A program made the position numbers and the translations under genes. Source: Polychytrium aggregatum (Eukaryota; Chytridiomycota; Chytridiomycetes; Polychytriales). From it: DNA of 64,000 nucleotides. The stretch lies in NCBI RefSeq assembly GCF_025602895.1, contig NW_026516230.1, positions 62,001-126,000 on the forward strand. Reading direction: 5' to 3'. The notes below the pieces were generated by a model. It was not told where the DNA came from. It did no database searches and worked only from the letters and a program-made list of their open reading frames with translations. Positions 12,382 through 46,001 of this stretch are shown here, one piece after another; the first letter of the stretch is position 1, and each line of letters starts with the position of its first letter.

Positions 12382-15300
12382 TCACTGGCAGAGCGTATCT
12401 TGGTCGTCCCCGGGCTCGCTTTCAACAAACAATGACACCAGCTGGCCCAGAGTGGATGTCGGTGTTTGCGGATATCGCTTGCAGAGGATCACCAGAGCTA
12501 TCCTTTCAAAGGGGTGCGTGGAAAGCCCTCTCGGTAATTCCTTTGAACCGTGGCCTGATATGCCAAGGTGGCTTCCAGCTCGACCATTCTTCAATTGGTT
12601 GAGAAGAGACCAGATGGCTTCCAGATCGCCTTTGAGGGGCCACCGGGCGAACGTCAAGTACAGGGCAAGATCCCTGGGGCTGGGGTAACCTGAAACAACC
12701 GGCAAATCTTCTTCAAAATCGCTCTGGATCATGGCCCGCAATGAATCGCCCAAAGCGTCCAACGCACATCGCGATGGAGGCGGCGCCTCGATATGCGATT
12801 GAGTGGCTGTGGCTCCGCTCGGCGGCTTGGCGTTATCGGTATCACGGGGTGGCGGCACAGGAGTTGAGATACTACACGATGCCCTGGCGCCGAGCGCTTT
12901 CGACCGCAACGATGTCCCTAAACTCCTCACGGAGCTGCTTCCGAAAATATGGCCAAAGTAGGACTCGAGCTCATGTCGAAGGGATCTTGCAAAGTGCTCG
13001 CGAACAGGGGCCGCTGAGTTTGATCGAGCGAGTCCTTGAATCTTCGGTTTCACCGACTGCCTTTCGTAGAAGGATAGAACGATGATTGCACTCCAGAGAT
13101 TGGATAGACCAGTCGACCTTCGAAGATTGCGGACACCTTCGTATATCTCCAAGAATGATTGAATCATTTCCGGTTGATCATGCGCCAGACACTCGTACAG
13201 GACGGAGGCATGGAACTTTCTTGTCCTCTGTGGATTTGGCGCGGAGTAGTTTGATTGCCACGCTCGGTCGTTGCTTCCAAGCCCACAGAAATACTCGGCA
13301 AAGGCCAAGATCTGTGGATCGGCCGAAAAGGATTGAATAAAGTCTTGATGAGACTCTTTGATCAAGAAGCTATGGTGTCGCGGAAACATTTGACCAATAA
13401 ATGACTCGACACCTTTAGGATCCTGTTGTGCACAACCAAGCGGTTAGTCTATTTTTGCCCCTCATCGGCCCGGTTGCTCCGTCAGGCAGGTTTGATTTCC
13501 GGGGCTAAGCATCAGGACTGAAAAATAACATCTTTGGAATCAAGAAGACGGCTCGATTGCCGATCGGATATAAACAGCCGACCGTTGCCAGGAACGCTGA
13601 CCTGCAAATAGCCAAGTTGGCCAATCTTGCGCTTGACCACCAGTTCAATCCGCTTCTGGGAATCGACTGGTCGCTTGGCTCCCAACTCGAGTATCCACGA
13701 CCAGTACCGAGGCCCGCATATGCGTATTGAATGGATGAACTCATACGGCGGCAGTAGACAAGGGGTAACCATCCGCATTTCCACGAGTCTCTGATCCGGG
13801 CTCAAAGTATTGACGTTGCCTCCATGCACTTGGTCGTAGACCTTGATCGACACGGGCACACAGCACAGCTCGCGGGTCGTTACATCGCGTGTAACAAGGC
13901 ATCGATCCTCGACGGCCAAAACCCACATGTATCGAAGGGCTTGGAGGTGAGCTCGTTGATCGGTGACCGATGAAGGGAATCGAGGAAACACCGAGGCTAA
14001 CAGAGCCGCGACAGACTTGCTCGATGTGCCAAGGGTCCGCGTGCCGCCAGCCAGGAAGAGAAATCCGATGGCCATATGAGTGGCTACATGACTCCCGAAA
14101 GAAACGTGCGGCACGAGACGCTCGTGAAGTCGGGTGAATCTTTGGAAGAGGGCTCGATTTCCTGTTCCAGCCATCACCAATCCAACGGAGATCACGACGG
14201 AATCCTGGCACCACAAGGCAATACAGTGTTGCAATTGAGGCCGAAAGCCGGCATCTACAATGGCACAAATCAATGCCGCATGGGATAGAAGTACGGCCAC
14301 GATTAGAAACGGTGGTCAGGCGTTAACCGTTACCGCTGCACAACCATGCACAGCCATGCACAACCATGCACAGCCATGCATAACCATGCACAACCACAGT
14401 CAACCGGGCATCTTCGTGTGTGCCATGCGCCTCAGTATTCGATCAGAGCATGTGTCCTCATGATCGACTCTGGATTTAAATATCGGATATGGACCACACG
14501 AACGCCCCCGAGTCGCCCCAGCCATACCTTCTGGGAGACCCAAATCGAGGAACAGATCCAGATAATTCAAGAGAACGGAGCAGGCCATCTGATTAGCGGT
14601 TCCAGCGAACCGCAGCCCCAGGGAAAGGCAGCATCCAGCAATCACGCCATAGTATGAGTAGAGAAGCGAGTCATCTTTGCTCAGCGCAATCTTGGGAATC
14701 GCAACTCGAGTGAAATCCATCGAGTCGGCTTTGCCAAATAGGCCGCGCTTGACCGACTCTGGAATCTGGGATCGAATCCAGCGTTCTGTCGGCTCGATAT
14801 AGCTCCATAAGATCAGGTTGCGGCAGAGGATTCTCAAGGCAATTTGATCTGGAGGGAGAAAGTCAAGGTGGTAGAGCGAGGTTGGAATGGCCAATCGGTT
14901 GGCGATTTGTCGGTTGTTTGTCTTCAAAAAAGCCAGTCCGAGCGCCACAGCTGCAGCGGGTGCAACGACATCGGGGGAAACACTTGAAGTCAACCAGGCC
15001 GTGCTTCGACTCGAGCGCTCGGGTGTCGCAAAGTTGCCGCCGCTGTATGATCTGCGATACCAGACTTGACCATGTAAGGACGTTTCTTGACTGGTGCTTG
15101 ATTCCAGCATCGCAACGAGCCGTTGAACAGCCTTCCCACTATCGATGCCGCCGATTTTGCTGCCGTGACCGAGCGTGATCATGCCGAAGGCAAATCCAGC
15201 ACACAGAGCCAGGTTCTCTTGGCAAGAGTCGGCCGAGTCTGTGTCGGAGCGAGTGTGGCTCTGCATCTCATCGAGCATGGACTTGGCCATGACATTGTGC

Positions 15301-18300
15301 ATGCTACTCATGTATACGAGGCCGAGAGAAAACGTCGCAGCAGCCTGATTGATAGGTGCAATCTGGAGTTCAAGAGAGCTTGGAGGGAGCAGGCCAGGGA
15401 TGTGAACGGAGAGTATACGAGCAACTTGCTCTTCGCAGGTGGAAACGTGGGCCGCCCCAAGTCCTAGGAGATAGGCCATTACTGTGCTTGGGTGCTTTGG
15501 GGTGAGATAGTGGAAGCCGCGCCATTGAACCAGATTTCGGAGATGACCAAGAAGCCCCATCGAAAATAGGAATCCGGCATGATGTGGGTCGAGATCGTCG
15601 GGCTTGTTGAAGGCAATCCACGCGCCATCGAGCTCGCTCTCGTTTGCATCAACGCAAAGTCCATCTGCAACACCTTCGTGAAATTCCGGTCCTTCCAGAA
15701 AATCAGGTAGACACTGAGTCAGGTCTAAAGTCACAACCGAGCCCACAGGCGGCATCTTGGCTGATATGGAAATCGGCCTCAACGACTTGATTTGGCTGTT
15801 AGAGTGAAATGGCGTTGACTTGAACATCAAAGCCGCTCGTCCGAATGGGAGCGAGAGAACCCGATTGGCGAGGATCATCAGGCGAGACTGTTGCTCGATC
15901 GCAATGTCGTGCTCGCTTGGACCGATCACGAAGAGATCTTGGTAAGTAGTCTATACAACACCGGTATCCAAAGTATTGGCTGGCATGCGCGCCAGATGCT
16001 AGACTCGTCGTCGGCACAACCATGTCAGTCGGAACAGACACAAACCTCATTTCCCCATCAATATGGATATCCATTTCACAAGGCCTCGGATTGACCCCAA
16101 GCATGTCCTGGACATCTTTGATTCGATCATCAATCATAAATCTGAGTCGAGAGACGATGCTTGTATCCATCTTGCTGTGCGTTGCGCCCTCAGAAGCCTG
16201 GGCGCCGGAACCAAGGCATTTGGTAAGCTGTTGTGAACATACCGCCCCCGACTCTCGATCCGCTTGCTTCGGCCAGAAGCGCGCCATGGTCGAATGCAAG
16301 GCTTCCGGGAATCACCATCCTTCTTTGGATCGATCCACTGAAATGCTCATTTGCGCGCCATCGGCTCGGAGCAACAGTGCTTGATTAAGGGCTGCCCAGT
16401 ACTGCCAATTCCGCGTCTTCTGCAACACCCCAAAGTACTGGAGGCGAGATGCTGATTCTCGAAAATATGCTCTCGTAGCGATTCTCTCTGATCATACACT
16501 CATACCGAATTGGATGATCGCTTCAGCGAAAAGCATCGTGCTTTGAGGAGATTTTTGATGGTAGCCCTCTGTTCGGCAAGATCTTCGCGACCTTGATTTC
16601 GGATCAGTTTTCGATATATCGTCAGCAGCAAAGTTTCTGAACAGGCCGAGTCATCGCCACATTGGGAATGTGAATGCAGTGCAAAAAAGAAAGTCGCAAA
16701 CCCACCGATCAGTTTGAAGGCCTCCATGGGCCAGGTGCGAGTGATTTGTTCTGAAGGCGGCGTGCTTCGGATGCGGAAGAGGGCTTCGCGCAGTGGAATA
16801 GCGACACCTTCTGGAAGTAGCAGCAAATCCGCATGCTGAAACCGACACAGACTCATTGCGGCTATCAGGGCCTCTGGATGCCGGTCAAAGTCTGGATCCG
16901 AGATAACCTTGTAAAAACAGACGATTCGGGTGGTTTGTGCGCATGCCAAGTTGCAATCAAGACTCGATTTGAGGACTGAGAAAACGGCCTCAGCAGGGTC
17001 GTAGAAACCGGTGGCTATCTTTGAGACAGCTGCATCCTGGTTGCGCTGCACAACTTCTGAGAGTTGCCCCAGATCCAGAAAAGGTTTGACTTCCTTGCCA
17101 GCAACGCTATCAGAAAGCCATTCGAAGATGTTGGGCGCAGCATGTATCAAGATTTGGAGGGATTGATGAAGGGACTCTGGTCGGGCTGACCCTAGATTTC
17201 CAAGGGTAGGATCGATGGTAGAGGCGATCATGTCGCCAGTATAATCATAGTACGGCCATGAGTCTGATGACGGAGACGACAGAACAATACATGTGCACGT
17301 ACATGGGCGGGCAATAGCGAACCTTTAAAAACATCGGAGTGAAAGACGCCGTCACGGCGGTAGTAGTCGACGTATGATTTCCATTGGATTCGGTGAGCCA
17401 GCACGCAGAGAGCAGCGCCCAAGTGACCACGAGCCTGCTCCCGCAGGGTATTGAGTTTGAGATCCTCGTACACCAAATGCAAAGTGAGCAAAATCAGGGG
17501 GCCGTCTCCGGTGATGTCCGGCTCCAAGGGATAGAAACGACTTTTCAACCGCAACGATATGGTGTAAAGATACTCAAGGCGACTGCTGATGGAAAGAGTT
17601 GTGCTCGGACGGCAGTCGGCACTCGCATTCAAGCATTCATATTCGGGGCATCCGAAATCAACAGGCTGCCGATTGAGTAGCTCCTGAAAGGGTTGTGAGC
17701 TTGCTGTTGAGCCATGCTTGTTAGCACAATCCCCCACGATCGTTACCGTTGGGGCGGGTCCATGTAAAAAAGAGAAAAGCACAATCAAAAAGCGCTCCCA
17801 TGGAGTCAGTCCGTAGCTCAGTTCCTCCTCATACTGAAGCGAGTGTTGGCAGAGTAGATGCCGCCTCAAGAAGGGTGTCAGCGACCTGGCAGGTAGGACC
17901 GTTCGCAAGGCAGCTATACACTGTTTGACAAGAGGCTCCTCGGAGCAAAACTGGAGTGCGATTCGCACAGAGTTTCCGTCCGATAAGACTACATCTACTC
18001 GATTGCCCAAGACAAGGCGCAGATCGCAAACTCGGGATTCTTTCGAGGGGGAACGAAGTGTTTCCGGCAATGGCCCGGTGCCGTGATTTGGGGCTTGACT
18101 CGCGGCTTGGCTCGTGGCTTGAGGGGGATCCTCAGTCGACGATGAGCGACGTCGCTTGGTCGAGACGAAAGACGGAAAGGTCTCTGAAGCACGGCGCTGG
18201 AAATTGCGAGGCATTGTGCATGGAATCGGATCCTCGAGGCCGCACCAAAGTGCGAGAGTGTTGTCGGGCTGGAGAATCAGGACATCCTGGTCGCCTAATC

Positions 18301-20102
18301 TTGTTGCCGTGACTGGAACGGCGGTGAGGGCCCGATAGGAGCGGCGTGCTCCAAACTCTGGTACACTCCCGTCCACAGAATTGTGTATCGGTGCATCGAC
18401 ACTTAGCGGCAAACAGCAAAGCTGTTGTCGCTGGCTGTTCATGATCCACCATAAATAGTACCCTGAGACCGGCGTAGTCGTGAGGAATGGGAGTTGGGAG
18501 GGAGAGTACACGGAACTGCGCAAAGTACAGGCAGATCGGCCAAGATATGGATGGTTCAGAATTATGGAGCAATCGCAAAATAAAATGATGAGCTCAGCAC
18601 CGGTCATCGATAGGCGCACACCAGACCCACACTAGACTCACACCAGACTCACACCAGACTCACACCAAAACCAGACGGCCACACGTCCTCTGCGGATCGT
18701 TGCGGTCACTGTGCGCCATCAGTTGCGACCTTAGATCCACACCTACTCACCTGTGCGTTACACATGATATGCATAGGAGTCGAAATTGTGAAGGGCGATC
18801 AAGGACTGTCGCGGGTGAGGCTCGATTACTGCACCGCTGGTTATCCAGTTTTGGATTGTGTGCCGTGCTTCCATTATCTTTCTCCGCTGCAGTTGTTGAA
18901 GGTGCAGTGCTCATATGAACAAAGGTCGGAGCGACTGCTTCTTCTGGTCCAGCCGTTGACGAGACAAGGCTCCATATGTAATATCTCATCGTCGTCGGCG
19001 AGTGGGAAGTCAACAATATCTTGGAACCGGACCCTGAATGTCTTGGGCCATCGATGTAGATATGCACGATCCTCTGCCCGACAATGGAGGCCAGCGAGTC
19101 GGACATTCTCAGCATGGTTTCGGATGGGGTTGATTCAGGCTGCCCAGTCCAGGTGGAGCCCGTGGGCATAGGATCAGCACAGCCCCCATCTTGGTGGTGG
19201 GCCGATCGGTGGGCCGACAGACTGAGAATAGGATATGGTTGTTCGCTGATGGAGACAGCGCGCAAACTATCCAAAGGATGCTCAAGAATATACAGGGATG
19301 AGGATCCTAGTAGCGACTCGCCGGATGCTGCTTCCTTGCGCTCGAGTAAAACTCCGCAACCGAGAGGCCAAAGCCGTTGCATGGCAAAAGGCAGAGGAGT
19401 GACGTACTGCCGACCACAGAGATACTGTATCTGCAAATACTCTGGAAACAAAACGCAGAGTGCCTTGATCAGAGAATCGGATGAATCTTGATGTGAATCC
19501 TTGGCTGGAGAGGTGTCGGCCGGAAAGTAGACCCAAGCGGCCTGAACTGCAGTCGAGGCACCAGAGCTCGATAAAGAATCACGGGCGCTGGAAGAATCGT
19601 CCCTTCTCGACAGATGAAATCGAGCGATGTTTTCCTGATCTCTGGCTTGGTGTTGATCGCCGTCTTGATCGCGATTGAAATCATGGTGTTGCTCCAGATC
19701 CAGATCTGGCTCGAATGCGATCGCTGCCTGCGAAGCCAGCGGCTGAGGCAACGGATCGGATCTTGGGGTGTCCAGGGTCAGGGTCTGCTTGATGATGCCC
19801 GAGCGAGTCCACACCACGACTGGGGGCCGAGAATGATCCTTGGAAATATATAGGAGATCGTCGTAAAGGCCATCGACGACCGGACCGGAGCCAGGTTCCG
19901 ACGAGTCCGCCGAACCAAGTTGCCTGGGATTCGACTGGCCGGAATGACGCTGCACTGAGACATGAGGATCCGAGAGGTGAACACATTGCCCCGAGTCCAG
20001 AACGAACGAAGGGCGGATGGACTGCTGATCCGAGAATGCAATCTCCATGACGGCGGTCGTCCCCAAGGGCGATCCAGTGTGTGGGCGACCGGCATCGAGC
20101 AT
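12382..20102 (-). CDS. APC1: Anaphase-promoting complex subunit 1
   Basis: This is the large scaffold subunit of the APC/C ubiquitin ligase, which triggers anaphase and mitotic exit. Long minus-strand exons lie at about 20102-18747, 18619-17228, 17231-16500, 16300-15800, 15929-14528, 14300-13512 and 13389-12382, ending at a TGA at 12382. The N-terminal half is beta-rich with acidic low-complexity inserts. The C-terminal half carries proteasome/cyclosome-type repeats, for example AATFSLGLVYMSSMHNVMA and ALCAGFAFGMITLGHGS. The most diagnostic stretch is near 14100-13900: AIGFLFLAGGTRTLGTS, then VFPRFPSSVTDQRAHLQALR and YMWVLAVEDRCLV, which match the animal APC1 C-terminal repeat region. Predicted size is close to 2,000 residues, as expected. 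Exact exon borders are mostly not verified. The start at 20102 diverges from the La-family gene by under 300 bp. Confidence 0.88.
14341..14396. repeat. 10-bp tandem repeat in an APC1 intron
   Basis: Five to six copies of the unit CAACCATGCA (with CAGCCATGCA variants) lie in the APC1 intron between the exon ending at 14528 and the next exon near 14300. On the transcript strand it reads as TGCATGG repeats. It has no coding role. Confidence 0.85.
18617..18671. repeat. 11-bp tandem repeat in an APC1 intron
   Basis: Four to five copies of CACACCAGACT, with CCCACACTAGA variants, lie between the first and second long APC1 exons. It is a simple minisatellite with no obvious function. Confidence 0.8.
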
Positions 20103-23099: not shown

Positions 23100-23361
23100 A
23101 CCAGGGGCTGACGTCTTTGTCTTGATACATCCGACACCGAGATTCTGCCAAGAGAGGAGCATCATGTCACACGCTATTCTTGAATGTTCATATAGCACGC
23201 ATATGAGCGGTTTATCAATGAGATTTCACTGTGGCTCTACTTGACCGCATCGGTCATCAGTCGCTGGCAAGCGCGCTTTGGGTGGAGCTTCCATCAGCCC
23301 TGGATGCTCATGGCTCCCGCAGGTCGGTCTGGATGAGCGGCGATCGGCCAATGCAGCGGTA

Positions 23362-23387
23362 CACTTTATTCAGAAAAAAACGGGACA
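23362..23387 (+). repeat. Terminal inverted repeat, Fanzor side
   Basis: It begins CACTTTATTCAG immediately after a TA and runs through seven A residues to CGGGACA. It pairs imperfectly with the opposite terminus at 26963-26986. The same end occurs in the two shorter copies, as CTGAATAAAGTG at 7.94 kb and CTGAGTAAAGTG at 32.95 kb. Confidence 0.8.
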
Positions 23388-23459
23388 ATATAGCCGTTTC
23401 CATGAACATGTAGTATGTGCTGTGCTTGCGTCAAGCAAAGCCACAAGAAATAAAACAGA
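23362..23459 (-). ncRNA. Candidate Fanzor guide-RNA (fRNA/omega-RNA) scaffold
   Basis: In TnpB and Fanzor systems the guide RNA is transcribed from the nuclease-side end of the element, with the scaffold reaching the terminus and the guide read from flanking DNA. Here about 98 nt separate the Fanzor stop from the element end. It includes CATACTACATGTTCATGGAA, containing the self-complementary CATGTTCATG (CATGAACATG on the other strand), and then TGTCCCG and the terminus. The segment is retained in both deleted copies although most coding sequence is gone. The guide would come from host sequence beyond 23361. This is inference from family biology; no RNA evidence is available, and the 3' end of the nuclease ORF may be part of the scaffold. 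Confidence 0.45.
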
Positions 23460-25832
23460 TCACTTTGGCAGCCTCCGAGTGAAGACCGCCGGTCGCTCTC
23501 CGATCTCCACAATCGACCTGCACACTGCGATCATGTTGCGCGCCGCATTGACGTCGCGATTCCACACTGTCCGGCAGCTGGGATTCTTGCAGCTCCTGAC
23601 AAAGTGGGAATTCGCAACACTGGGCGCATCGAGTCCTTCCAACCGAACTGGCTCCAGGCACTTGGAGCACACTTGCGAGGTGTTGAACTCGTTCGTCGAG
23701 GCCACCTTGACGCTTCCATGATGGTGATTGGGACGGCGGCGGTGGTGCTCGAATTGCTCAAAGTACCGAGCAAACCGCTGCCTCCGAGGGCTGGATGCAT
23801 AGCCCTTGCCTTGACGCCATGATGCATTGCCAAAGGCGATCACCACATCATTCTCCCTCGGGGCGTGCTTCAGGACGGCCTTGCACATCCTGTCGACGGC
23901 CACTTGGCGCCTCTTGTGGCCCGTGAAGCGATGGTGACGGGCCTTCTTGCCAAGGTGGAAGTCGAGCTGCACTCGCAGCTCCGGTCGCAGGACATGGGTG
24001 AGATGGACCTTGAAGGCCTCCGAGGATGACACCTTGGGCGAGGGAGTGGTTGACATCCAGGTCTCGATGCCGAGTCGATACTTCATGATAGTGTACCACT
24101 TGGTGTTGGACGTATGGCCACACATGTGCTGGTAGTGGCCATTGGAGAACGAGACCACCTCGTCTTGGTGGCCCGGTGCTTGGATGACCGCCGTGAAGAT
24201 GGAGCCGACTCCAGGATCGATGCCAATCCAAGTGGTGCGATCGGGGTCTGGGTCGCCGATGTGGGCCTGGATGCGCTGCTCGGCAGTCGGAGGAGGCTCG
24301 ATGGTCTCGGTGTGATCGGTTCGAGGCACAAACTTGACGAGACCGATGGTGCATCCAATGCCATCGGTGCTGATCTCGTAGTTGAACAGCTTCTTGTTCA
24401 CGTCCCGCTCTTGGAAGAGGGAACTACGCAGCTTGAAGCAACTGCGCCAGAGACGATCCTGGTTGTTGACACCGTCCTCACCTTCTTCCTTGAGCATGTC
24501 CCTGGTGAGTCCAAGACGATGTTCGGTGTCAAGGAGTTGCCAGAGAGTGACGGTGTCAATCTTGATGTACTTGGCCCTTGCAGTGCATAGAGGAACCATC
24601 GTGCACACGGCCGGAGGAGTGTCAAGAGCGAGCTGCTTGAGTGCCCACTTGATCCTGGATGCCAGCCTGTTGATCTTGGACTTGGTGGTGCCGAGCTCCG
24701 ACTTGGCCGTGGTGAACCTCTTGTCGTCGGAGGGAATGCCTTGGGTAGTGAGCTTGTCCAGCTTGGCCTGGCGCTGCAGCTCGGTGACTCGGAGGGCGGG
24801 CATGTCACAGTCGATCCACTTGTGGACATTGTCGACCATCTTGTCTCGGGCGAGGATTCTCACATGGTGTGAGAGGCGATGGAGGGCCCGGAAGCGGTCC
24901 TGGTCGTTGCTGTACCGAAACTCGTCCAGGACGTGGCCAAACTCGGGATAGAGGAACTCGAGATCGGCCTTGGGTGGAGTCGAGTCCGGTTTCTCGAAGA
25001 GCTCGAGACAAGCCTCGATGGCGTCGTGCTTATGCTTGTTGGCAGGGAAGACGGCAGCACAGAAGCGGCGAAGAAGTCGCCAGTAGGCCAGGTCGAGGTG
25101 GGTGGTGCAGTTGGTGGCATAGGCATTGACAGCCAGTGTGAGAAGCTGACTGTGAGCACCATCAGGCAGACGAGGGGCCGGAGGCAGGTCTGCGTGCCGA
25201 GTGGTCTGGTAGTCGCGAAAGGAAGCGACCAGATGCTCGTTGTATTTCTCATTGTCCCCGGTCGGCGAGAGGGCATCGGCCTCGACAATCGTGAAGCATT
25301 GGCGGATGAAAGCAGGGGTGGACTTGGAGATGACGGGGACGGGAAGATCCTGCTCGATGCACCGGAGGATGTGCAGGTTGAGCAGCCTGGATGCCTCGAA
25401 CTGGATCTGGGTCATGGCCTCGACGGTGGCCTGGATCTTGTCGCGGAGAGCGGGATTGAGACAACAGCCATCCATCGTCTGCTTGAAGCAGCTGAACTGA
25501 GGGGCGGATGACCTTCCATCCACGAGAGGGACGACAGAACTCTTGAGGGGCCGGTATTTTGGACACTTGCTGGTGTTGCAACGTTCGTGATCGGTGCCAT
25601 CGCACTGGCGACATCGCTTGCCGGTACTCGAGGAAGTAGATGGACCAGGCTCGGTGGGATCGACATCCATTGGATCTGCAGAAGCAGTGGTGGTGAGCGA
25701 CGGAGCAACAGACGACCAAGCATGCGTGGGGTCAGAAGACGAACCAGAGACAGGCTCCGACTGTGACTTGGCTTTCTTGGGCCTGGGTGGCCGAGGCTGG
25801 CCATCACCGGCACCCTTGCGCTTCGGAGGCAT
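23460..25832 (-). CDS. Fanzor RNA-guided DNA endonuclease (eukaryotic TnpB homologue)
   Basis: This is an uninterrupted 790-codon frame. Fanzors are RNA-guided DNA nucleases related to TnpB and Cas12. The chosen start, MPPKRKGAGDG, begins a basic nuclear-localisation-like tail (PPRPKKAKSQ); an in-frame ATG at 26018 would add 62 residues without domain signal. Numbering from that start: a CCHC-like cluster sits at Cys74, Cys77, His82, Cys85 and Cys90; RuvC-I is WIGIDPGVGS with Asp539. At the canonical RuvC-II glutamate site the sequence is VVIAFGNASW (Gly668), and a candidate replacement Glu715 lies 47 residues on in TNEFNTSQVCSKC. The zinc ribbon is Cys722, Cys725, Cys748 and Cys753; RuvC-III is NRDVNAARNM with Asp760. 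Moved glutamates of this kind are described for Fanzors. No intron is seen. It lies downstream of a broken transposase in the same element. Confidence 0.93.
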   Translation of the reverse strand: MPPKRKGAGDGQPRPPRPKKAKSQSEPVSGSSSDPTHAWSSVAPSLTTTASADPMDVDPTEPGPSTSSSTGKRCRQCDGTDHERCNTSKCPKYRPLKSSVVPLVDGRSSAPQFSCFKQTMDGCCLNPALRDKIQATVEAMTQIQFEASRLLNLHILRCIEQDLPVPVISKSTPAFIRQCFTIVEADALSPTGDNEKYNEHLVASFRDYQTTRHADLPPAPRLPDGAHSQLLTLAVNAYATNCTTHLDLAYWRLLRRFCAAVFPANKHKHDAIEACLELFEKPDSTPPKADLEFLYPEFGHVLDEFRYSNDQDRFRALHRLSHHVRILARDKMVDNVHKWIDCDMPALRVTELQRQAKLDKLTTQGIPSDDKRFTTAKSELGTTKSKINRLASRIKWALKQLALDTPPAVCTMVPLCTARAKYIKIDTVTLWQLLDTEHRLGLTRDMLKEEGEDGVNNQDRLWRSCFKLRSSLFQERDVNKKLFNYEISTDGIGCTIGLVKFVPRTDHTETIEPPPTAEQRIQAHIGDPDPDRTTWIGIDPGVGSIFTAVIQAPGHQDEVVSFSNGHYQHMCGHTSNTKWYTIMKYRLGIETWMSTTPSPKVSSSEAFKVHLTHVLRPELRVQLDFHLGKKARHHRFTGHKRRQVAVDRMCKAVLKHAPRENDVVIAFGNASWRQGKGYASSPRRQRFARYFEQFEHHRRRPNHHHGSVKVASTNEFNTSQVCSKCLEPVRLEGLDAPSVANSHFVRSCKNPSCRTVWNRDVNAARNMIAVCRSIVEIGERPAVFTRRLPK

Positions 25833-26100
25833 GGGGACAGAGGATGCTGGATGCCTGCCAGTGGTACTGGTCAGAGCAGAGACTTTTTTATCGTACAATA
25901 GCGCGATGATCAGATCAAGGCGAGATGAGGGAAGAAAGCAGCAGGACGAAGGTGTGGCATTTATACCCGAGAGCAGGAACCCGTCTTTGCGGGCTGGTTG
26001 GGGAAGCGACCTGTTCAAAAATCGCCGAGAGGTTCAAGCCAGGGATGTGAAAGCGAAAATGGCGGCGTGATTGGGGAGCTCAACCCCAAATTGGAGGAAC

Positions 26101-26904
26101 TCAACCCCAAATCGGTGGGGACTCAACCCCAAAGAAGTTCTCGATGGGATTGAAGTCGGGCGAGGCAGGTGGGGTGAAGATCACTGACCATCCTCGGCGC
26201 TCGATGTAGTCCAGGACAGCCATTGTCTTGTGCATGCTGACATTGTCCATCACAATCACAGAGTCGTCTGGGAAGCTCGCTCGCTCAAAGAACTCGACCA
26301 TCGAGTGTCTTGAATGATGTGGGGATGTACATGCGATGCAGCACACCAGAGTGGTTGATGGCAAATGCAGCCGAGACAGACTTGTGCTTCATGTGATTGA
26401 GCTGGCGAAGCGGAGCACCCTTCGGCGAGTATCCGTAGAGAGGGAAAATGGATCTCCTGATCCCTGTCTCGTCGACAAAAACGAGCCGTCGTGGGTCGAT
26501 GGAGCGGGCCTGGTCCCTGAACTGTGCCACTCGCTCATCCAGTCGCTTGGACTTGTAGAGGTGTGTTGCCCTCTTGTGCGAGAGACCTGCTCGGTGGATG
26601 GCAGTGTGGCAGAGTGAGAGTGAAACTTTCCTCTGGAGGATGGACTCGAGCTTGCATCGCAACACAGGACCAGTCTGGAACGGTCCTGTTCAATCAGGGT
26701 GCGAATGACTGGACATGCCTGCTCGAAGAAAGTGGATCTGCGAGCTGGGACCCGGGATGGGTCATCCAGCTTGCATCCTCGGTGCCATCGATGGATGGTG
26801 CTTTTGGACACATTGAATATGGTGGCGACCTTACGCAGGCTATGGATGAGGGCGTAGCATCGCAATGCGGCGGTGCGAAAGTCGGATGTGTGGCGAATGG
26901 TCAT
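26101..26904 (-). pseudogene. IS630/Tc1-type DDE transposase, frameshifted
   Basis: Translation starts MTIRHTSDFRTAALRCYAL with a helix-turn-helix (VATIFNVSKSTIHRWHRG). The catalytic residues are visible: first Asp in LVFVDETGIRRS, second in SVIVMDNVSMHK, and the Glu in PPASPDFNPIENFF. These lie in three different frames. One break is near 26685, where GACCGTTCC has lost one C relative to GACCCGTTCC in the relic at 7.47 kb. A second break is near 26307, around the CACTCGATGG sequence after TSFKT. All DDE residues survive, but no single frame spans them, so this copy is unlikely to make an active enzyme without frameshifting or sequence error. Confidence 0.9.
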
Positions 26905-26962
26905 GGCCAGCGCGCGATAACATTGGGTAACAAAATATTCGATGAATGGTCAAAAACCCGGG

Positions 26963-26986
26963 TGTCCTTTTTTATTGGATTGCCTG
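26963..26986 (-). repeat. Terminal inverted repeat, transposase side
   Basis: Read inward it is CAGGCAATCCAATAAAAAAG and then GACA, ending at the TA at 26987-26988. The homologous ends are CAGTCAATCCAGG at 7264 and CAGCGTTTCCAAAATG at 32666. It pairs imperfectly with the terminus at 23362-23387; the shared core is the ATyCA, A-run and GGACA. Confidence 0.75.
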
Positions 26987-27238
26987 TAATTTCCTGGAAT
27001 GCGATGTGGTGGCGGGCTGGGACAGCAGCGGCGCAGTCCCGTCGTGACACCCACATGACGGCCCAACTCTGCGGCAGCCCCGATCGGCCCGTCGTCTCTG
27101 GCTCGATCGATCTGGCCCAGCCCACCCGCACCCACACCCGCAAGACATCACAGCCTGTCCAAATCGCCCCCGTCTACTACTCCATTCCTTTCTCTTCCCT
27201 CATTGACCGCTCGGTGTGACTTCATCGTTCAGTAGCCC

Positions 27239-43178: not shown

Positions 43179-45553
43179 TCATGATGCAGATTCCACAAGA
43201 CTCTCCTCATCAACCAGCACTCCCCATCGGGCAGTCATCCTCGAGTCCATCACCTTGACTCCCAGCAACACGCATACAAAGATCAGCAGCAGGGTCACAC
43301 TCATAAGCGACTTCTCTGTCAGAGTTCCCGACGTCAGAATCAGCACCAGCCCCGATAGGACGACATAGAACGTGCCCATGACGATCGAGTACGGCTGAAG
43401 GGTTCGGCGGGCCCGCCCGTAGAAGCCCACGGCAGACAGGTGGGCGTTCGGGCGATTCCAGTATGACGGACGAAAGCCAGGGTGGTTACTGGACTCGAGT
43501 TGTTGCGGTCCGATCACTTCATCGTACTGAGCTTCGTCGAGTTCGATTTGAATCCCTGTCGAAGCAAGAGCCGAACAACCACACAAGGACGTGAGCCAAG
43601 TGTGCTCGAGGCGCATATCTGAGGGGCCTGTGATGCTCCACTTTCCCAGCCCGCATGGCAACTGCTCGCGGTTATGAGAACGACAAGCGCCGCGCCTCGT
43701 TGGCAGCCCCGCAGAGCAACATGCTTCGGCATCGGAGACTCCCTCAAACGCTGAACCGTGCGCATGCTATCCTGGCCACCGACACACAACGTCATCATGG
43801 CTACGAGGCTCGTTGCAGCCGAGCATCCTGGCGCCACTCTGCCCTCAACTCGCTCGCCATGCCCAGCCATAGGCCCTTGCCGCGAATGGCTGTCTGTGGG
43901 ATTCGAACCTTCGTTCTCCAGGGCCTCGCGTGGAATGTCAAACAGTTGGCAATCGGCCGGGTCCAGGGCGTTGACCTCGAAGAGCTTGCGCACGACAGCT
44001 CGTGCCAGATAGTCATCGTCGGTGCCAATGAACACGGCCCGGTATCGTATCATGGACGAGTATGCCTCGACCGGGCTCTGCTCGCCCTGCTCGAGCATCT
44101 TTTCGTCCTCGCCGTACTGAGAATGCCCGCTGGCCTCGGATTGATCATTGTCGCAGTCACTCGACTCAAAGACGCCTGTCGGCGGAGCCCCCTTCTTCTC
44201 CAAGGTCGCCGTTCGGATCGCAGCGATGCTGCCCGAGACCTCTTCCGTGGGAATCGACTTTTTCCTCAGCGTCAGTTTAAGCGTAGCTTGACTCGTTTGG
44301 CCGCAGCCGGCCCCTGTGCTTGGTGAGAAGGGGCTGTCGCCAGTGGGCTTGGCATCCAGACACTCTGCCGACGGATAGTGACCTAGATCATCACCTGCAA
44401 CGGCTCGAGAAGCTGCAATGTTCGTGACCGATCTATATGCCTTCGGTCCGTTGAGGCACTCGCTAGACCCCATGTTGGCGAAAGGCTCAAAAATGTCCTG
44501 AATCGAAATAGAAGATAGTGCGCTTATGTCCTTTGGGCTCTTGATTTGATCCGGTTGATCTTCGATGCTCTTTGGCGAAGCTGTGTCCATGTTGCGATGG
44601 CCGATGCTGCCTCGATGCTCGTGGCTTTTGCTGGCCACTTGCTTCACATAGTTCTGGTGCTGCGAGCGCAGACGACGAACGCACTCTTCCATGGTGGTGC
44701 TCTGCAAGTCTTTGAGTCGCTGCAGCTCGTCAAAGGCCTGCAGCACCATGAGATCATCCCTGGATGCGGCCACAACCGGCTCGATCTTCAAGTCCGCTGA
44801 AGAGCCCCGGCTTCGAGCGGCGGTTCCCAGCTCCAGAGTCTTTGTGGACTTGTTCAACTCTGGGCCGACAATCTCGGCAACCTTGAGCGAGTTGAGACTC
44901 CCGACCGAGTTGAGCATGAGCTGGTTGAGCGAGAGCTTTCGCCGCGCGTCCCTGGAGCCTACAGAAATGCGACTGACCGGAGGGCTGCTGGGGAAGTTTG
45001 TGGCCAGTTCGTTGAATCGCTGTGCGAGAGCTTTCATACCCATGCCCGGTGTGGAGCGAGAGGACGAGACTTGGTCACTGCTGTTGCTGTTGTCCGTGGT
45101 CTCGACCATGAAGTAGTCCACATCACCAACAATCTCGGTGTTGGTTAGGGGGTTGAGCGCAAACAGCCGGAAGAGATACTCTTGTCGCCGACCATACTTT
45201 CGGAAAATAACCTTGTTCAGAGATGGCGCATAGTAATAGAAGAATACTGGCCGATGCGGCGCCGCTGGGTCGATCGTTTGCACCCGTGCGAGAATCAAGG
45301 ACTTGCCCTGTTTCGCGTGGGACTCGATGAGGGCTTCGAGCGTTTCCAACAGGAATGGATCCTCGCGGTCGAGGCTCAGCAACAACGCAGCGTCAGGCCC
45401 GCCCTCGCTGGACCGAGGATCGACAACCTGAAGATACCCTTCCTTTGGAGACATGGACGAAGCGTACGCCCAGGCAAATGCAATCGATCTTGGAGCAGAA
45501 CGCGGCCGTGGGAAGGTGACAGAGTGTGCAGTCCGAGTCGAAAACCCTGGCAC
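43179..45553 (-). CDS. Unrecognised protein with C-terminal membrane hairpin
   Basis: I do not recognise the family. The long first exon (about 45553-43930) encodes a folded N-terminal part: GYLQVVDPRSSEGGPDAALL, HAKQGKSLILARVQTIDP, VFFYYYAPSLNKVIFRKYGR and LNPLTNTEIVGDVDYFMVET. A long Ser-rich linker and RAVFIGTDDDYLARAVVRKL follow. An intron of about 370 bp seems to join ALENEG to GIQIELDEAQYDEVIGPQ near 43552. The C-terminus has two predicted membrane segments (VMGTFYVVLSGLVLILTSG and LMSVTLLLIFVCVLLGVKV) and ends at 43179. An alternative start, MSPKEGYLQ, lies at 45454. It is probably an integral membrane or membrane-tethered protein with a large cytosolic part. Confidence 0.65.
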
Positions 45554-46001
45554 ATGCGATGAGGTATCGGAGACCGAGTCAAAAGATCCGAGCGACTGTG
45601 TCGGGTACTAATGGCGGCTCCCGCAGGTGCGGCGACTGAGATGCAGATAGAAGCCGGGCTGACAGCACATCAATCTCAGCGTCGACGTTGCACCCAGGTC
45701 AGCGTGCTTGATTCAAGGTGACGTAGTCCAGGACTCAGGCTGTCCTTGGCGGGTGCAGCCACACTGGGCTACCCAAGGAGCAATCGTCAGGGACTCCATT
45801 TTTTTGAATATGCCGTGGCTATGTGGCTACATATAACACGGCGTGGCGCGGCCAGGATCGGCTGTGGCGCGGAGTCGGCGCCCGTCACATGACCGCAGTG
45901 ATGCCGAGCCGCAGCCTCCGGCCCAAACCCAGCCGACCCGATCTGGGCTGGATCGGTCTCTGCCACAGCCATCACCACAGCGACCGGTGCATTCGCCGAG
46001 A
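45554..46001. other. Divergent intergenic region
   Basis: About 450 bp lie between the unrecognised membrane-protein gene (-) and SUV3 (+). No gene or repeat is seen. The region from 45843 is open into the SUV3 first exon but is Pro/Arg-rich and more likely 5' UTR than coding. Confidence 0.5.

Follow-up and report, generated by a model that had tools for sequence, protein, structure and literature searches.

The window, a stretch of 64,000 nucleotides from the chytrid Polychytrium aggregatum (NCBI RefSeq assembly GCF_025602895.1, contig NW_026516230.1, positions 62,001 to 126,000 of the forward strand), contains at 23362-26986 an element of about 3.6 kb, with TA on both sides, that carries a gene for a Fanzor nuclease and the remnant of a transposase. 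Its sequence and that of its relatives point to a high-copy family of IS630/Tc1-type transposons equipped with a Fanzor, whose insertion sites are probably kept by RNA-guided cutting, a reading to which we assign a probability of roughly 0.55. The gene, the element ends, the TA duplication, the copy number, the polar insertion on TTA, the retention of the 3' end and the exchange of sequence between copies are all seen in this genome; RNA-guided keeping of sites is the mechanism that we infer as best supported.

Sequence comparison confirms that the 790-aa protein is a Fanzor. The signature of Fanzors is DPG at RuvC-I together with a catalytic Glu that lies six residues ahead of the zinc ribbon (PMC10711439). 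The protein has D539-P540-G541 at RuvC-I and, in E715-FNTSQV-C722, a Glu at the Fanzor-type place, which a PDB search with two sequences aligns to its counterpart in SpuFz1; this middle catalytic residue had been left unnamed in the original prediction, which had read Asp539, Asp760 and a four-Cys zinc ribbon from the sequence. These are all present: the ribbon consists of C722, C725, C748 and C753, followed by D760, and its second Cys pair is C-x4-C, not CxxC. D539, E715, the four Cys and D760 are the same in two other Fanzors of the genome. The RuvC/TnpB profile match proposed as a check was obtained in a Pfam search, in which PF07282 (Cas12f1-like_TNB) is matched above its cut-off at residues 708-767 (E 6.5e-9); NCBIfam gives weak TnpB and Cas12f2 matches far under cut-off, one of which covers 532-767. 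Among solved structures, TranC is the top relative in two of three PDB searches, those with one sequence (E 0.14, ahead of SpuFz1 at 0.77) and with three (0.072, SpuFz1 0.086), and SpuFz1 in the one with two sequences (E 0.0033, followed by TranC at 0.075 and GtFz1 at 0.097).

The available evidence supports a TA-inserting IS630/Tc1-type transposon as the carrier of this gene. The element ends are exact, as other copies diverge at TA 23360-23361, on the Fanzor 3' side (right end in the Fanzor sense, RE), and at TA 26987-26988, on the 5' side (left end, LE), and they bear imperfect inverted repeats of about 26 bp, in keeping with IS630/Tc1/mariner elements. One copy (L019, G000:C90:331832-335469) is inserted in a repeat of which other copies show a single TA there. 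Because these unoccupied repeat copies (L039, L041) read a single TTA, the TA is a duplication and the T before it is the target's own. The transposase remnant consists of a helix-turn-helix (HTH) piece at 26389-26904, whose best Pfam match lies under the cut-off, together with a DDE_3 piece (26101-26301, E 2e-12). An intact 310-aa transposase (DDE_3 E 2.8e-23; HTH_23 under cut-off) is present on a related element, termed B, at C2:38416, and an open frame covering the whole of it was found in none of 35 window-type copies. Similarity to it stops at residue 260-261 in 27 of the 35, and the best transposase frame is 268 aa in 15. Up to its NPIE motif, the transposase part has a ratio of non-synonymous to synonymous substitutions (dN/dS) of 0.22 (0.14-0.34; 19 frames, window copy excluded); a value of 0.57 was discarded because the frameshifted window copy had raised it. 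The 3' end of the remnant has tandem repeats at the point where similarity to the last ~49 transposase codons stops, and the allelic copy on contig C136 has some 105 bp more in this stretch (26070-26138).

The original prediction of a Fanzor in an IS630/Tc1-type transposon, beside a DDE transposase and within TA-flanked inverted repeats, is thus borne out, with the ends now exact by copy comparison. Its description of a separate, complete system does not hold, the element being one of many copies with its transposase frameshifted. The polar target, the short derivatives, the two Fanzors and the allele exchange described below were absent from it. The searches that it proposed, for further copies and for empty sites, have been run and are reported here.

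Across the genome (64.68 Mb, 418 contigs) the left-end pattern has 351 matches at no more than one mismatch, against 0 for the backwards control, and 293 (56 + 237) that are exact including the TA; these 293-351 left ends combine full, short and haplotig copies. When the Fanzor protein was used as query, the best 57 of 1282 candidates included the window itself and 56 others that are 94-96% identical; one stop occurs in six of the 57, a list of top scores and hence biased toward intact copies. The Fanzor frame is at least 780 aa long in 21 of 28 copies chosen by DNA match (L009-L038 minus L027 and L034). Its dN/dS is 0.31 (95% interval 0.25-0.40), calculated from the 21 of 34 copies with an exact-length frame, three with an internal stop; the 34-copy set omits L001 and L004 (the places of L009 and L038), L034 (without right end) and L027 (which has the flanks of L024). 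In viral contigs, 41 pattern matches to possible relatives were found and none was confirmed.

Two Fanzors that are about 40% identical ride a nearly identical transposase end, an arrangement new here. The B element at C2:38416 encodes an 850-aa Fanzor, 39% identical to that of the window by BLAST (43% in alignment), and its right end is 94.7% identical over 870 bp to the window type. The usual 3' end is missing from this copy, and the end ...TTTCTTTCTGGTTTGACTG, followed by TA, is shared by five other B copies. A search with the B protein placed 42 sequences that are 80-86% identical, a further set, among its best 53 of 1399 candidates. A third-set member, L107 (G000:C10:76600-81700), has an 866-aa Fanzor in a repeat unit ending ...CATAGTGTC, and no Tc1-type transposase was found in the stretch of this unit that was fetched. 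The L107 gene is followed by a relic, 75% identical, of the 3' end of type B. At two loci that share flanks, L047 (C30:24520-24950) and L072 (C79:298330-298840), a short element of another subtype abuts the RE of a Fanzor copy.

Insertion of the window-type elements is polar on TTA. In the Fanzor sense, a T stands before the upstream TA in each of the distinct loci (34 of 34). No comparable bias occurs elsewhere up to 25 bases to each side, and 4 of 34 loci have A as the mirror base. Genome-wide, the base next to the right-end pattern (window strand) is A in 250 cases and another base in 27. By end type, T at -1 accompanies 23 of 39 TTGRCTG ends and 227 of 238 other ends, counts that include haplotig copies and in which not every 'other' end is confirmed as window type. 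At the left end, the mirror base shows no bias (56 of 293), and T precedes TA at a background rate of 0.164 in the window outside the element. From this layout, and whichever of transposase or Fanzor picks the site, the target-adjacent motif (TAM) is predicted to be TTA and the guide to be the flank beyond the Fanzor 3' end (RE). The L019 copy mentioned above sits in the end of a repeat whose copies often adjoin another Fanzor family, and its predicted guide would resemble such repeat ends beside TTA (38 among the matches listed).

Many copies are much shorter. Thirteen of sixteen stretches around short or exceptional copies hold an element of 283, 311-313, 383-385 or 1113-1114 bp, and the remaining three reach the right end only; one short copy (L098) has an altered left end, and two pairs of short copies have flanks in common. 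Between 166 and 449 nt of the Fanzor 3' end are present in each of the 13 short copies read. They also keep about 100-210 nt of the LE, and 667 in the longest class; most were found via the left-end pattern, a search that ensures the presence of its 18 bases and not more. Some were chosen for their -1 base, and no T rate is taken from these copies. The 98-nt 3' non-coding stretch has a diversity of 0.023, whereas third codon positions reach 0.070. Folding predicts a terminal hairpin in the window-type (A) and B ends that were folded, with stems that differ yet pair. The short copies may be guide-RNA-only derivatives, judging from what they retain; the kept 3' end, its conservation and its fold fit a guide-RNA (omega RNA) scaffold and would fit conserved transposase-binding ends too. 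An AATAAA at the element end was considered as a 3'-end signal of the guide RNA and dropped, the B ends being read without it. Rfam at its gathering threshold and ARAGORN gave no matches in the window.

A joined-flank search for empty alleles gave no junction-spanning match at 26 loci (best 40 of 87 candidates); it used 26 of 29 junctions, and an intact empty site would outscore all listed matches. At 10 of these loci there is a second place whose match halts at the junction, and two further allelic pairs, L024/L027 and window/C136, bring the total to 12. Nine pairs were read, four of them partly, with L007, L008 and L025 left out; the partner place of L007 has a Fanzor match. In eight of the nine the two alleles hold different element versions, in sequence or in length class, and two pairs combine a full-length allele with a short one (312-bp or 1113-bp class). 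The elements of the nine pairs differ at 472 of 17221 aligned bases and the flanks at 4 of 4704 (~0.1%), of which 3002 come from L024/L027; without that pair, 2 of 1702 differ. The window copy and its C136 partner have one mismatch and one gap in 1188 bp of right end and flank and are 96% identical elsewhere, while L024 and L027 are 99.56% identical over 3.6 kb. Between copies at different sites the divergence is 2.9-5.3% (561 pairs). A high rate of sequence exchange among copies follows from two results: 387 of the 472 allelic differences are states present in other copies, and linkage decays fast, with r2 (the squared correlation between sites) at 0.29 under 20 bp, 0.06 at 20-50 bp and ~0.03 beyond 200 bp (34 copies, 216 common sites). 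The last value is near 1/33, transversions alone decay likewise, and the copies are near linkage equilibrium beyond ~100 bp.

A mechanism can be proposed for this family in which RNA from the Fanzor 3' end would run past the element into the flank, each copy's RNA thus carrying its own site as guide. The Fanzor with this RNA would cut the same site when empty (TTA, then the guide sequence). Such an empty site would arise after excision or on an unoccupied homologue, and repair of the break would reinstall the element. Short copies would give RNA only, with Fanzor and transposase acting in trans, and with repeated breaks mended from other copies, sites would stay occupied as the sequence of the occupant changes. 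Site keeping of this kind would explain the polar TTA, the lack of empty alleles, the retained 3' end of short copies and the conservation of the Fanzor frame. More tentatively, it may be that RNA-guided cutting holds a genome-wide population of copies and guide-only derivatives in place, fixed on TTA in a single orientation since an empty site could be cut again in no other, with break repair making of it one recombining gene pool in which sites are filled and occupants change.

Several observations weigh against RNA-guided site keeping. By itself it does not predict exchange in the body of the element, which would need breaks within the element or ends invading other copies, and the occupied alleles may merely reflect old fixed insertions. 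The Fanzor frame is only 399-766 aa in 7 of the 28 copies chosen by DNA match. In two of the four short classes the LE part is longer than the RE part, and the non-coding stretch of the LE matches that of the RE in conservation (0.024), so conservation alone does not point to an RNA; the 3' stretch folds modestly better than shuffles (z about -2). AlphaFold2, the structure prediction proposed earlier, was run on the window sequence alone and reached a predicted local distance difference test score of 35.3 for the 391-aa C-terminal part and 37.6 for the whole protein, both unusable and too low for a fold to be read. Polarity, occupancy and exchange were all measured in Fanzor-carrying families. 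Finally, T at -1 is not confined to the window type: the TTGRC-end group has it in 16 of 27 distinct loci, above the background of 0.164 (p 6e-7), a bias that does away with a clean contrast of the same transposase without a T rule and so weakens the case.

That last group bears on whether the polar TTA is instead a target preference of the Tc1-type transposase, the Fanzor being a passenger or using the site that the transposase gives it, which we consider less likely than not. The group comprises full-length B elements and short copies that are mostly B-like, a few with A-like parts; it omits L053 and 11 rows whose flanks repeat those of another row, and one of these 11, L085, is non-T at -1 unlike its partner L084, an omission that slightly favours T. 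Because this group, which includes elements with the second Fanzor and a nearly identical transposase, is also T-biased, the transposase may contribute to the bias, and in IS200/IS605 elements, which carry an HUH transposase, transposase target and TAM coincide. The T rule is nevertheless weaker in this group than in the window type (16/27 against 34/34, p 3e-5; 23/39 against 227/238, p 5e-9, haplotig copies included), despite the near identity of the B right end, so the group cuts both ways. TA-inserting DDE transposases do not, to our knowledge, usually have polar targets. Three of four distinct exceptional loci with a known other end have TTA reversed, a tiny sample in which one does not.

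The exchange and the occupied alleles could also come from ordinary ectopic gene conversion and fixation of an abundant repeat, independent of the Fanzor, a possibility that we take seriously while holding it somewhat short of even. A large number of copies that are about 96% alike provides good partners for conversion, the tracts show no tie to Fanzor cuts, and cuts within other copies are not expected from a site-specific guide; against this stands the high rate implied by flanks ~0.1% different around elements that differ in eight of nine pairs, although such a rate does not single out the Fanzor. It is improbable that the mixed alleles and low linkage are artefacts of assembly or polishing, or that the paired contigs are duplications and not haplotypes. 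Linkage does decay within 20-50 bp, below read length, in an analysis made from the assembly; the near identity of L024 and L027 speaks against a polishing artefact. Also contrary to this reading are the match of the window copy and its C136 partner across right end and flank, the many open frames with a Fanzor dN/dS of 0.31, and the two pairs that differ in length class. Mutation of repeats, through repeat-induced point mutation or CpG decay, has almost no claim as the source of allelic differences: common transitions outnumber transversions 149 to 67, but transversions show equal linkage decay and only 52 of the 149 transitions touch CpG, on which grounds it was ruled out, and the recurrence of most allelic differences in other copies is contrary to it.

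The kind of element is already known, and that of the window is a further member. Fanzor1 in TA-inserting Mariner elements has been known since 2013 (PMC3627910), RNA-guided cleavage by Fanzors was published in 2023 (PMC10432273) and gene drive by TnpB in plasmids in 2025 (PMC11870625). SPu-1 of Spizellomyces punctatus, with its Fanzor1 (SpuFz1), inverted repeats, putative TA duplications and 17 full-length copies (PMC3627910), resembles the family here, and the SpuFz1 TAM, CATA (PMC10432273), also ends in TA like the predicted TTA. However, SpuFz1 has 633 aa against 790 here with a weak, C-terminal sequence match, and SPu-1 is described with a single open reading frame. The Mariner elements PGv-1 and PUl-1 have a Fanzor1 beside a Mariner-like transposase and TA duplications, as here (PMC3627910); PGv-1 is viral and single-copy, in contrast to this large family with short copies. 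GtFz1, the Fanzor1 of Guillardia theta, has the TAM TTAAN (PMC10432273), close to the TTA predicted here, but its third catalytic residue is Asn (PMC11423790) and not Asp, and the sequence match is weak (E 0.097). TnpB of IS200/IS605 elements is likewise an RNA-guided nuclease whose guide records the insertion site, and is reported to act as a gene drive for insertion sequences in plasmids (PMC11870625); those elements are prokaryotic with the canonical Glu, unlike the DDE transposase and alternative Glu found here. No published account of a polar target, of short 3'-keeping copies or of exchange is apparent in the titles and abstract openings of the Fanzor papers searched, which gives no proof of absence from print.

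The features of the element are collected in the table below. Elsewhere in the window, frames at 12382-18631 (minus strand) match domains of anaphase-promoting complex subunit 1 (PF18122, PF12859, PF20518, PC_rep) in several pieces, as would be seen in a eukaryote with introns, and a 697-aa frame at 43514-45607 (minus strand) contains DUF5092 (PF17010, E 5e-19).

Table. Features of the Fanzor element and its flanks, in window coordinates
Feature	Position	Strand	Remark
Predicted guide, flank just past the RE TA	23340..23359	-	From the published Fanzor layout
TA target duplication, Fanzor 3' side (RE)	23360..23361	.	Similarity between copies stops sharply
Terminal inverted repeat, RE	23362..23387	+	CACTTTATTCAGAAAAAAACGGGACA
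Candidate guide-RNA scaffold: Fanzor 3' end and 98-nt 3' non-coding stretch	23362..23527	-	Kept in the 13 short copies read
Predicted terminal hairpin of candidate guide RNA	23368..23407	-	
Fanzor gene, 790 aa	23460..25832	-	Open frame intact
RuvC-III Asp760 codon	23553..23555	-	Invariant in three Fanzor sequences
Glu715 codon, alternative RuvC-II Glu	23688..23690	-	Six residues before C722
RuvC-I Asp539 codon (DPG)	24216..24218	-	Invariant in three Fanzor sequences
Three 21-22-nt tandem repeats	26070..26138	-	3' end of transposase remnant
IS630/Tc1-type transposase remnant	26101..26904	-	Frameshifted in window copy
Terminal inverted repeat, LE	26960..26986	-	Imperfect; CAGGCAATCCAATAAAAAAGGACACCC in Fanzor sense
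TA target duplication, Fanzor 5' side (LE)	26987..26988	.	Similarity between copies stops sharply
Predicted TAM, TTA in Fanzor sense	26987..26989	-	From the T bias at -1

Little is known of the biological role of Fanzors (PMC10711439). This one genome offers a large family, a readout of the TAM from insertion sites, two Fanzors on one type of transposase end, short copies and allelic pairs, and in such a family retention, homing and exchange are directly testable. If RNA-guided site keeping is true, the Fanzor would protect and spread eukaryotic transposons, much as TnpB does for bacterial insertion sequences.

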